64,000 nucleotides of DNA from Arthrospiribacter ruber (lineage in GTDB: Bacteria; Bacteroidota; Bacteroidia; Cytophagales; Cyclobacteriaceae). Positions 103 through 2,841 of this stretch are shown piece after piece. Numbering within the stretch: the first letter of the stretch is position 1; each line of letters begins with the position of its first letter. The notes under the pieces are model-generated. The model saw nothing but the letters and a program-made list of their open reading frames with translations, was not told where the DNA came from and searched no databases. The translations under genes were made by a program, and so were the position numbers. The stretch is taken from contig NZ_RPHB01000002.1 of NCBI RefSeq assembly GCF_019343195.1, positions 637,627 to 701,626 of the forward strand, given 5' to 3'.

Positions 103-1200
103 TTATTTTTTAATTGGATCCGCTTCGCGAAGTTGCTTTTCCTGCCTTTTTACTGATTCCTCATGGATACAATAAAGCAGCTCCTTCATGAATTTTTCGC
201 TGAGGTTTTTATTAACACCCTTCTGGGTTCTGGATTCCATCACATATTTCCACCTGTCAGACTGGAATACTGTGAGGTGATGCTCTCTCTTGTAAGCACC
301 TATCTGATCAATCATAGAAAAACGTTCCTGAAGGATATCCAAAAGTTGATCATCCAAATGGTCAATGGCATTTCTAAGGTCATTGAGTCTTTCACTAGGA
401 TTTTCTGTAGCTAAAGTATCTTTGAAATCGATCTTCGAAAGGATTTCTTTCAATCTACCTGGAGTAACTTGTTGCTTGGCATCTGACCAAGCCTTATCAG
501 GGTCATGATGGGTCTCGATCATCAATCCGTCCAATCCAAAATTGATTGCCCTTTGGGCGGTTTCCAAAATCCCTTCTCTATTGCCAACAATATGACTTGG
601 ATCGTTGATGACTTCCATTCCTTTCCACTCTCTTTTGAGGTGAATCGGCATGGACCAGTTGGGCTTGTTACGGAATCTCTTGTCATAAGAATCAGAAAAA
701 CCTCTATGGATCGCTGCCAGCTTGTTGATCCCAACTGCCTGAAGTCTTTCCAAAGCTCCCAGCCAAAGCTGAAGGTCCGGATTCATAGGGTTTTTCACCA
801 TCACAGGCACATCCACTCCACGAAGGGCTTCAGCGATTTCTTGTACTGCAAAAGGGTTGACCGTGGTCCTTGCTCCTATCCAAAGCACATCCACTTTGTG
901 CTTGAGTGCCATTTCCACATGGGCTGTATTGCCTACTTCTGTAGTAATAGGTATATTAAGGTGGTGCCTGACAATTTCCATCCATTTCAACCCATCTTCA
1001 CCTATACCTTCAAAGCTTCCTGGTCTCGTTCTTGGCTTCCAGATACCTGCCCTGAAAACATCAGGGATCATATTTTCTTCTTTCATAGCGAGACAGACTT
1101 TTTCGATCTGCTCTGGTGTCTCGGCGCTGCATGGGCCTGCGATAATGGTGTGGCCTTTCAGACCTAATCCCCAATCCTTGGTTTGTAAATGGTTTTCCAT
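103..1200 (-). CDS. Bifunctional DAHP synthase / chorismate mutase (paralogue 1)
   Basis: This 365-residue cytoplasmic enzyme joins two steps of aromatic amino-acid synthesis. The N-terminal part (about residues 15-260) is a KDO8P-synthase-like type I DAHP synthase that condenses phosphoenolpyruvate and erythrose 4-phosphate; the motifs GPCSAETPEQ, WKPRTRP, GARTTVNPFAVQ and HRGFS are visible. The C-terminal 100 residues form an AroQ-type chorismate mutase (RNAIDHLDDQLLDILQERF). This domain order is the one known in Bacteroidetes. The start at 1200 gives an N-terminus that aligns with the neighbouring paralogue. It lies 298 bp downstream of that paralogue and carries its own promoter, a Phe/Tyr-rich leader peptide and an attenuator, so I infer that this copy is repressed when Phe and Tyr are plentiful. 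Confidence 0.95.
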   Translation of the reverse strand: MENHLQTKDWGLGLKGHTIIAGPCSAETPEQIEKVCLAMKEENMIPDVFRAGIWKPRTRPGSFEGIGEDGLKWMEIVRHHLNIPITTEVGNTAHVEMALKHKVDVLWIGARTTVNPFAVQEIAEALRGVDVPVMVKNPMNPDLQLWLGALERLQAVGINKLAAIHRGFSDSYDKRFRNKPNWSMPIHLKREWKGMEVINDPSHIVGNREGILETAQRAINFGLDGLMIETHHDPDKAWSDAKQQVTPGRLKEILSKIDFKDTLATENPSERLNDLRNAIDHLDDQLLDILQERFSMIDQIGAYKREHHLTVFQSDRWKYVMESRTQKGVNKNLSEKFMKELLYCIHEESVKRQEKQLREADPIKK

Positions 1201-1219
1201 AATGGTGTTAGTTTAAAAG

Positions 1220-1248
1220 CAAAAAGCCCGACTCTCTCGAATCGGGCT
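1220..1248 (-). terminator. Attenuator terminator hairpin before DAHP synthase 1
   Basis: On the minus strand a 7-bp stem (AGCCCGA at 1248-1242 with TCGGGCT at 1231-1225) is followed directly by TTTTT. It lies between the leader peptide stop (1270) and the gene start (1200), where an attenuator terminator belongs. Its left arm overlaps the antiterminator segment 1245-1237. Confidence 0.8.
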
Positions 1249-1306
1249 CTTCACTTGGTTTATAATCTTTTAGTTTTTTACAAGGCAATAAGCAGCTCCG
1301 ATTCGA
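1237..1306 (-). promoter_or_regulatory. Antiterminator pairing of the Phe/Tyr attenuator
   Basis: The minus-strand segment TCGAATCGG (1306-1298, inside the leader ORF) is perfectly complementary over 9 bases to CCGATTCGA (1245-1237), which contains part of the left arm of the terminator. Segment 1306-1298 can also pair through TCGAA with TTCGA at 1319-1315, directly after the Phe/Tyr codons. The four mutually exclusive segments therefore reproduce the 1:2, 2:3 and 3:4 logic of classical amino-acid attenuators. Pairing was read by eye; no folding energies were computed. Confidence 0.75.
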
Positions 1307-1365
1307 TTTTTCATTCGAAAGTAAAAGTAAAAGAATGTAAAATATGCGAAGCCTGCGATTATCAT
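1270..1365 (-). CDS. Phe/Tyr-rich leader peptide (31 aa)
   Basis: A short ORF opens with ATG at 1365 and stops with TAA at 1272-1270. Codons 6-16 read FAYFTFFYFYF, so nine of eleven codons are Phe (6) or Tyr (3). This composition is the signature of a leader peptide whose translation senses charged tRNA-Phe and tRNA-Tyr. It sits just upstream of mutually exclusive hairpins and of a DAHP synthase gene. A TAnnTTTG box ends only 4 bases before the ATG, so the transcript may be nearly leaderless. The peptide itself probably has no other function. It would be missed by gene callers because of its length. Confidence 0.8.
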   Translation of the reverse strand: MIIAGFAYFTFFYFYFRMKNRIGAAYCLVKN

Positions 1366-1369
1366 GTCT

Positions 1370-1400
1370 CAAATGTAAAGGCACATTTTTTAAAAACAAA
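1370..1400 (-). promoter_or_regulatory. Bacteroidetes-type promoter of the leader-DAHP synthase 1 unit
   Basis: On the minus strand TTTG (1400-1397) is followed after exactly 19 bases by TACATTTG (1377-1370). This matches the -33 TTTG and -7 TAnnTTTG consensus described for Bacteroidetes housekeeping sigma factor. The leader peptide ATG begins 4 bases after the -7 box. Confidence 0.7.
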
Positions 1401-1498: not shown

Positions 1499-2626
1499 CT
1501 ACTGTGGTTTTTCTAACTTTTCTGCACCTTCTATTTTACTTTCCATAATTTCTTCCTGTTTTTTGATCGACTCCGTATGGATCAACTGAAACATTTCCTT
1601 TACAAAGCCTTCTTCAAGTTGCAGGGATCTGCCCCATTCCGGTCTTGATTCAAAAACCGTCTTCCACCTTTCCATTTGGAAGATGGCCACATTGTTCAGC
1701 TTTTTGTATTCACCGGCTTTTTCCACCAGTCTAATCCTTCTGCTCAACACCTCCAGCAATTCACGGTCAACCTGGTCTATATGTTCCCTAATCGTATCCA
1801 ACTGAGACTGAAAAACCGGATTCTCCACCGAGACTTCTCTAATATGAAGCCCTGCAATCATGCCTCCCAATACTTCAGGTGTGATTTGTTGTGAGGCGTC
1901 AGACCAGGCCTTATCAGGATCTATGTGGGATTCGACGATCAAGCCCTCAAAATTCAAATCCATTGCCATCTGCGCGACCGAAGAAAGTAAATCCCTTCTT
2001 CCGCAGATATGGCTGGGATCATTGATAATGGGAAGGTTCGGGATTTTTGTTTTTAGCTCAAGAGGAATCTGCCAGGTCGGGCTATTTCTGTAAACCTGAT
2101 CGTTAAAGTTGGAAAAGCCTCTATGAATGGCCCCGATTTTTCTGATCCCTGCCTGATGTATCCTTTCCAATGCTCCAATCCAAAGTGCCAGGTCAGGATT
2201 AACCGGATTTTTGACTAAGACAGGAACATCAACCCCCTTCAGGCTGTCCGCAATATCCTGCACGGCAAATGGATTGACCGTAGTCCTGGCTCCAAGCCAA
2301 AGCACATCAATGCCAAACTCTAAAGCTTTTTCTACATGGTACGGACTTGCCACCTCTATGGCAAATTTGACTCCATACTTTTCTTTGACATCCTTGATCC
2401 AAGGCAAAGCAATATGCCCTACTCCTTCAAAACTATTAGGCCTGGTCCTAGGCTTCCATACTCCTCCCCTAACCACTGAAAAACCTTTCTCCACAAGGGC
2501 TGAAACAGTCCTGTCCAACTGTTCAGGAGTCTCCACGCTACATGGCCCTGCAATGACCAAGGGGGCTTTAGAACCCACTCCCCATTCGCTTATCGAAGCA
2601 ATATCAAATCCCTTTTCTTTTTCCAT
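1499..2626 (-). CDS. Bifunctional DAHP synthase / chorismate mutase (paralogue 2)
   Basis: A second, clearly homologous fusion enzyme of 375 residues with the same order: KDO8PS-like DAHP synthase (GPCSVETPEQ, WKPRTRP, GARTTVNPFAVQ, HRGFSNF) then AroQ chorismate mutase (IDQVDRELLEVLSRRIRLV). The frame is open to 2707, but the ATG at 2626 (MEKEKGFDIAS) matches the length and N-terminus of paralogue 1 and the extra 27 codons do not resemble the family. I see no aromatic leader peptide or attenuator upstream, in contrast to the other copy. The pair probably represents differently regulated isoenzymes feeding the shikimate pathway, as separate Phe-, Tyr- or Trp-sensitive DAHP synthases do elsewhere; this is inference. 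Confidence 0.93.
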   Translation of the reverse strand: MEKEKGFDIASISEWGVGSKAPLVIAGPCSVETPEQLDRTVSALVEKGFSVVRGGVWKPRTRPNSFEGVGHIALPWIKDVKEKYGVKFAIEVASPYHVEKALEFGIDVLWLGARTTVNPFAVQDIADSLKGVDVPVLVKNPVNPDLALWIGALERIHQAGIRKIGAIHRGFSNFNDQVYRNSPTWQIPLELKTKIPNLPIINDPSHICGRRDLLSSVAQMAMDLNFEGLIVESHIDPDKAWSDASQQITPEVLGGMIAGLHIREVSVENPVFQSQLDTIREHIDQVDRELLEVLSRRIRLVEKAGEYKKLNNVAIFQMERWKTVFESRPEWGRSLQLEEGFVKEMFQLIHTESIKKQEEIMESKIEGAEKLEKPQ

Positions 2627-2841
2627 TAATGAACAAACCAAGTTTACACCCTTTAAGTTTGGGCGACAAGTTAAGACAATTCCCTCATTGACCTTCAAGA
2701 CAAGCATCTGGTATGCCTGATTTTCTCTCAGTGCATCTTGTATGAATCTACTCCACTGGAAAGCCTAAAAAAGTCTTGGGAATATTTATGTCAACGGTCT
2801 GAAATAGCCAAACATAAGCCAAGCCCGTGGAGTTTTTTTGA

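Follow-up and report, generated by a model that had tools for sequence, protein, structure and literature searches.

Transcription attenuators of the kind described below are already known from Escherichia coli pheA and Corynebacterium glutamicum aroR. The E. coli pheA leader carries a Shine-Dalgarno sequence and lacks a Tyr run, and we know of no chorismate mutase fused to the C. glutamicum aroF DAHP synthase. Like the leader analysed here, that of pheA (pheL) combines a Phe-rich peptide with a terminator, attenuation being by charged tRNA-Phe (PMC11802643). In C. glutamicum, an actinobacterium, the aroR leader peptide likewise precedes a DAHP synthase gene, and ribosome stalling raises transcription, as we propose below; the aromatic stretch of aroR is Phe-Tyr-Phe only, as against nine aromatic residues here, and it is reported to respond to Phe and not to Tyr (PMC11802643, PMC4046766). 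The ilvBNC leader peptide of C. glutamicum is described as being made without a ribosome binding site, a precedent from another phylum that concerns branched-chain amino acids rather than Phe/Tyr (PMC4046766), and a leaderless start is therefore not new by itself. In the same phylum as our locus, Flavobacterium psychrophilum offers strong clues for leader-peptide attenuation at amino-acid biosynthesis operons, the main text naming no Phe case among the candidates (PMC9723704). Upstream ORFs notable for Phe/Tyr are recorded at shikimate metabolism genes among five genomes, in a figure legend (Fig. 6) that names no host for them, and the text consulted mentions no Cyclobacteriaceae (PMC6429828). 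In the open-licence PubMed Central literature, as far as its text was accessible, we found general hints and no case of a Phe/Tyr attenuator in Cytophagales; there are few records of amino-acid sensing through ribosome stalling in Bacteroidota. Vitreschak et al. (2004) reportedly list some attenuators in Bacteroidetes/Chlorobi. As far as this search extends, the 5′-anchored topology, the distinction between Phe/Tyr and Tyr coding, and the lineage are new.

Here we describe a leader on the minus strand of the Arthrospiribacter ruber window (the whole 64,000-nucleotide stretch of DNA that was analysed), which is very probably a transcription attenuator, its gene predicted to be ON when charged tRNA-Phe or tRNA-Tyr is short (Table 1). 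Phe/Tyr attenuation of this gene, proposed in a preliminary description, is strongly supported by comparison, in that leaders and terminators are kept, the antiterminator covaries (pairing of strands 2 and 3, hereafter 2:3) and the codons follow the pathway product. The 31-codon ORF with nine Phe/Tyr codons reported there is borne out by minus-strand translation of 1365..1270, which ends in a stop codon and reads MIIAGFAYFTFFYFYFRMKNRIGAAYCLVKN; these codons lie among codons 6-16 (F6, Y8, F9, F11, F12, Y13, F14, Y15 and F16). The terminator hairpin stands as well, with arms AGCCCGA (1248-1242) and TCGGGCT (1231-1225), the last base of the latter being the first of five T; the hairpin is predicted at 1256-1217 with 18 pairs, and the fold of 1400-1205 lies 4.5 s.d. 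below dinucleotide shuffles. The nine-base antiterminator match (1306-1298 with 1245-1237) is exact, and it is longer by three pairs beyond one bulged A (GCT 1296-1294 with AGC 1248-1246). The five-base 1:2 pairing proposed at the end of the Phe/Tyr codons, TTCGA (1319-1315) with TCGAA (1306-1302), is present, but its covariation is absent in a first set of leaders and weak in a second (see below). The −33 element is conserved as judged by eye in an alignment of 29 leaders. The leader thus has the parts that characterize an attenuator: an ORF rich in codons for the product, an intrinsic terminator, mutually exclusive 2:3 and 3:4 pairings, and a 1:2 pairing that competes with 2:3.

Table 1 Features of the leader and its gene in the window
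Feature	Position	Strand	Remarks
−33 element TTTG	1397..1400	−	19 nt 5′ of −7 box; from sequence
−7 box TACATTTG	1370..1377	−	Bacteroidota sigma-A type TAnnTTTG; 4 nt from leader ATG
Leader peptide ORF, 31 codons + stop	1270..1365	−	Predicted transcription start is its A, 1365
Strand 1 (1a)	1347..1363	−	Last base of start codon to first base of codon 7; contains F6 codon
1a:2 helix	1363-1347 with 1300-1287	−	14 bp, two bulges; from listed pairs and strand-swap tests
Core Phe/Tyr codons Y8-F16	1318..1344	−	Within loop of 1:2
Strand 2	1287..1306	−	1306-1294 pairs with strand 3; 1300-1287 with strand 1
Leader stop codon	1270..1272	−	Within loop of 2:3
Strand 3	1237..1248	−	Left arm of terminator and right arm of antiterminator
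Intrinsic terminator hairpin + T run (strands 3:4)	1217..1256	−	16 nt 5′ of gene
DAHP synthase / chorismate mutase gene	103..1200	−	Pfam DAHP_synth_1 129.1 bits, CM_2 73.6 bits

By its Pfam domains, the controlled gene encodes a type I DAHP synthase fused to a type II chorismate mutase (DAHPS-CM); a search of solved structures with the enzyme returned distant DAHP synthases only. The gene may be monocistronic, because an inverted repeat lies at its 3′ side (about 62-95, by eye). A second DAHPS-CM gene (1499..2707; 48% identity to the first) adjoins it, and no aromatic leader or attenuator was seen in the 163 nt upstream of this second gene. The proposal that the first committed step of the shikimate pathway would be induced on Phe or Tyr shortage needs that qualifier. 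A phylogeny of 34 proteins places the 25 attenuated genes included in a single clade with support 100/100, and the product of 1499..2707 groups with the seven genes that have no such leader. An orthologue of 1499..2707 at >55% identity is present within the fetched stretch of 22 of the 80 named loci introduced below.

Ninety-four leaders were compared, comprising that of the window, those of 80 named loci (the best 80 of 111 confirmed stretches, at 81-96% protein identity, from Belliella, Algoriphagus, Cyclobacterium, Echinicola and kin) and those of 13 divergent orthologues. A fold search found a terminator between leader ORF and gene in all 94. Upstream of the orthologues from related genera the Phe/Tyr ORF is kept: the run YF(T/S)FFYFYF or a close form is found in 80 of the 81 near leaders (the window plus the named loci), and all 13 divergent orthologues of the same family (54-65% protein identity) have a Phe/Tyr-rich leader and a terminator in largely different sequence. 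The sole exception among the near leaders is L076 from Nitritalea, in which the run is interrupted by a frame change. Seven genes at 49-54% identity have no aromatic leader upstream. Leaders are 19 to 31 codons long (52 in L076), and one, L094, is displaced by about 90 bases. The best Phe/Tyr score per nine residues is 8 in 82 leaders, 7 in eight, 6 in three and 5 in one; upstream of 475 other long ORFs of the same loci, scored by the Phe/Tyr count in nine residues of ATG-started short ORFs, the top score was 6, reached once (of 479 controls listed, four were the DAHPS-CM gene read from an in-frame start farther upstream and were taken out). In L076, strands 2, 3 and 4 are retained despite the broken run.

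A second part of the peptide, RIGA(A/V)YC or a close form, is also retained in most of the 81 near leaders, which is what would be expected if the peptide itself acted through its conserved RIGAAYC part, as an arresting nascent chain or as a free peptide. We regard this as highly improbable: the divergent and operon leaders have, by eye, only the aromatic run in common, and the RIGAAY residues are encoded by strand 2, which takes part in both pairings. Less credible again, and the least so of the alternatives weighed here, is that the leader serves as a free small RNA or is bound by a protein or metabolite (T-box, riboswitch or Bacteroides sRNA type), with an ORF present by chance; against it, the codons are conserved and track the product. 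A weak Rfam match to BTnc231 (27.7 bits, cut-off 80.4) speaks for such a reading, but by eye it aligns best over the terminator, and no family reaches its gathering score in the leader; the weak matches to BTnc231, Thr_leader and NrrF were all rejected, and a T-box is not among the Rfam matches of the leader. The Rfam family of the E. coli pheA type, Phe_leader (RF01859), was not matched (20.1 bits, cut-off 55). In its consensus the paired 5′ strand is a U-rich stretch, which we read as Phe codons, whereas the Cyclobacteriaceae leader has its core run in the loop, downstream of strand 1.

Pairing was examined by strand-swap tests, chosen to avoid reliance on a fixed alignment, in which duplex energies were computed for strands belonging to one leader and compared with those for strands exchanged between species (20,000 permutations). 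For 2:3 in the 13 divergent leaders, own strands gave −16.8 kcal/mol and swapped strands −14.1 kcal/mol, a value as low being found in 0 of 20,000 permutations (3 of 20,000 in another run). Pairing between the 5′ end of the leader and strand 2 (1a:2) gave −11.6 against −7.6 kcal/mol, with none of 20,000 as low; before the boundary of strand 1 was moved in L114 and L121 the energies were −11.1 and −7.2 kcal/mol, and the count was 0/20,000 either way. The 1:2 pairing first proposed, with strand 1 at the end of the Phe/Tyr codons (TTCGA:TCGAA), showed no covariation in the same leaders (−5.70 versus −5.68 kcal/mol; 9,520/20,000 as low) and had to be given up. Larger sets gave the same picture: 1a:2 and 2:3 each scored 0/20,000 both in 31 spread leaders and in all 94, in which TTCGA:TCGAA scored 8,060/20,000 and 3,571/20,000, respectively. 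In a second set of 13 model-found leaders (L163-L173, L178 and L179: ten operon heads, one second DAHPS-CM copy and two hydroxylase genes), the counts were 50/20,000 for 1a:2, 1/20,000 for 2:3 and a weak 822/20,000 for TTCGA:TCGAA, and in a third set of 13 distinct hydroxylase-gene leaders, two of which are common to the second set, they were 14/20,000 for 1a:2 and 280/20,000 for 2:3. Covariation of the antiterminator between species was thus found in three swap sets. The covarying strand 1 comprises codons 1-7 at the predicted 5′ end of the mRNA and precedes the core Phe/Tyr run; in the window leader, 1a:2 and 2:3 both use 1300-1294. Some single leaders have a weak 1a:2 (L165, −2.6; L179, −5.2; L197, −5.3; L114, −5.6 kcal/mol), and own strands were at or under the median swap in only 11 of the 13 divergent leaders. 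Applied to 18 near leaders, RNAalifold returned only the terminator and a hairpin containing the TTCGA:TCGAA pairing; it misses 1a:2 because the near sequences vary little and because 1a:2 slides by one codon between clades.

A box of the form TAnnTTT plus one base ends 4 nt 5′ of the leader ATG in 83 of the 94 leaders (82 if the eighth base is held to G/A and the most upstream in-frame ATG is taken), with a 5-nt gap in four further leaders by either count; among the divergent leaders the gap is 4 nt in 8 of 13. Other long ORFs of the same loci, scored with the stricter box TAnnTTTG, have one within 120 nt in 73 of 409 cases, and in these 73 the gap to the ATG is 4 nt in none, 5 nt in one and 13-30 nt in 45. 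As the −7 box is described at −12 to −5 in F. psychrophilum (PMC9723704), we place +1 at the A of the leader ATG, and from the 4-nt gap the leader mRNA is predicted to be leaderless. Leaderless mRNAs are given as 5.5% in F. psychrophilum (PMC9723704) and 5′ UTRs of <10 nt as about 3.7% in B. thetaiotaomicron (PMC7366714); Flavobacteria lack Shine-Dalgarno sequences and, according to the same F. psychrophilum source, Bacteroidota at large seem to as well (PMC9723704). Among 24 operon and hydroxylase leaders (see below), 13 have a recognised −7 box that precedes the nearest ATG by 4-9 nt, the gap being 4 or 5 nt in seven of them; the other 11 have none in the stretch shown, which counts against the proposal. 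In L137, L139 and L140, from other families of the same order, the nearest box lies farther upstream by eye, and these are not leaderless.

Codons, terminator, spacing of the −7 box and pairing partners are all conserved, and the following mechanism would account for their arrangement. Transcription would begin at the A of the leader ATG, and a ribosome would load at the 5′ end of the leaderless RNA. With ample Phe and Tyr, it would translate as far as the stop codon, strand 1 would re-pair with strand 2 behind it, strand 3 would be left free, and the 3:4 terminator would stop transcription. A ribosome stalled on the Phe/Tyr run would instead occupy the loop of the 1:2 hairpin and so prevent 1:2; 2:3 would then pair, the terminator would be excluded and the gene would be read. 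A ribosome at the stop codon would occupy the 2:3 loop and block 2:3. We propose that the ribosome acts by loop occupancy because the 1:2 hairpin has the core run in its loop and the 2:3 hairpin the stop codon. The order of folding in time that we infer was compared with predicted folds of 93 leaders (L076, for which the bounds of the run were set by hand elsewhere, was left out). In nascent RNA before strand 3, 1:2 forms (at least four expected pairs) in 88 of 93, and it is stronger than with a codon-shuffled strand 1 in 81 of 93. When the transcript extends through strand 3, 2:3 is formed in 89 of 93 even in the absence of a ribosome; when it extends through strand 4, the same holds for 3:4 whether or not a ribosome is stalled (93 and 92 of 93). 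As modelled, folding at equilibrium is by itself not enough to yield the switch; later pairing tends to replace earlier pairing, and the decision must therefore be kinetic.

Two results count against this mechanism. When the ribosome at the stop codon is represented by a simple footprint, 76 of 93 leaders, that of the window included, still form 2:3 and 17 do not, strand 2 being uncovered in leaders of the window type; among the divergent leaders 2:3 is prevented in 9 of 13 and persists in 4 of 13. In addition, 88 of 94 leaders have 14-25 nt between the stop codon and the terminator, and an E. coli ribosome at such distances is described as able to hinder a terminator, the full effect being seen only at >27 nt (PMC4824070). 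The latter spacing would suit a pyrBI-like arrangement, in which the terminator is the default and the ribosome acts mainly through its distance from it, rather than through a 2:3 antiterminator. We consider it very unlikely, although the least so of the three alternatives: it would turn the gene ON when Phe/Tyr are plentiful, which we take to be the wrong sense for a biosynthetic gene, and it leaves the covariation of 2:3 and 1a:2 without a reason. If its RNA is leaderless, the proposed attenuator would bring initiation, sensing and termination together within the first 150 nt of a single transcript.

A covariance model built from 17 leaders was run with stricter filters on 148 genomes of the family. 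It matched directly upstream of the DAHPS-CM orthologue (at least 54% identity) in 51 genomes, coordinates being compared by eye; the 17 model sequences are among these leaders, and many of the 51 genomes belong to organisms of the named loci. The one exception was G065, whose orthologue (54% identity) has no leader upstream. Among further DAHPS-CM upstreams sampled in the order, 3 of 20 have an aromatic leader and terminator. Among the matches listed, nine genomes also have weaker ones that share the strand of the other DAHPS-CM paralogue and precede it by 2.1-3.3 kb. At these sites a Phe/Tyr leader with terminator heads operons for prephenate dehydratase, aminotransferase and prephenate dehydrogenase, or for the latter two (leaders L163-L171 and L179; genes assigned by Pfam at L163-L165 and by eye from N-terminal stretches at L166-L171 and L179). 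Two more leaders, L173 and L178, precede a Biopterin_H gene, an aromatic amino-acid hydroxylase that we take for Phe hydroxylase (phhA). Among 20 further model-search sites, L174-L177, L181 and L182 are not aromatic leaders, and L180, before a prephenate dehydratase gene, has at best two F/Y/W/H in nine residues of any short ORF starting with ATG, GTG or TTG.

Biopterin_H matches were found in 102 of the 148 genomes. Forty-four hydroxylase upstreams were inspected, a non-random sample of 30 best protein matches and 14 picked by hand (L215-L217 for a model match there). Twelve pass a mechanical rule, comprising ten Tyr runs, one mixed run and one chance ORF, and four more have, by eye, four-Tyr leaders with a terminator. 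The leaders with Tyr runs, of up to seven consecutive Tyr, are L173, L178, L187-L189, L193, L197, L201, L203, L206, L207, L215-L217, L222 and L223, where L193 is the same place as L173 and L201 the same place as L178. Nine-residue cores contain 277 Y and 458 F in the 94 DAHPS-CM leaders, 40 Y and 34 F in the ten operon leaders, and 66 Y and 3 F in 13 distinct hydroxylase leaders (without L206, its peptide being identical to that of L197, and without the mixed L185 and the chance L192). Because Tyr runs were the criterion by which these 13 were chosen, a fair comparison uses the mechanical set of 12, with L185 and L192 included, which has 58 Y and 11 F (p = 0.002 versus the operon leaders). In the A. 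ruber genome, a Trp leader, MKSIKATYWWWHMTSQIGENH, with a terminator precedes a Chorismate_bind gene, likely trpE (L161, C1:490500-491800); no leader was found there before the prephenate dehydratase and hydroxylase genes. With Phe/Tyr, Tyr-only and Trp leaders at matching genes, the leader codons track the pathway product.

On balance, and with modest confidence, we favour an aromatic regulon of the Cyclobacteriaceae built from leaderless or nearly leaderless, 5′-anchored attenuators. The strand at the start codon would serve as the anti-antiterminator, the sensing codons would lie in the loop to be occupied by the stalled ribosome, and Phe plus Tyr, Tyr-only and Trp runs would separately address DAHP synthase and pheA-tyrA, the aromatic hydroxylase and trpE. 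Such leaders amount to natural reporters, with single codon bases separating Phe from Tyr sensing. Other residues occur in some of the runs. His codons lie inside or beside the aromatic run in L166, L170, L189, L203, L207, L216 and L222, and the Phe/Tyr run of L171 includes Trp. Trp codons are also part of the runs of L137, L139 and L140 (YYFYWFYF, YFSFYYFWY), and all three aromatic amino acids may therefore be sensed in other families of the order.
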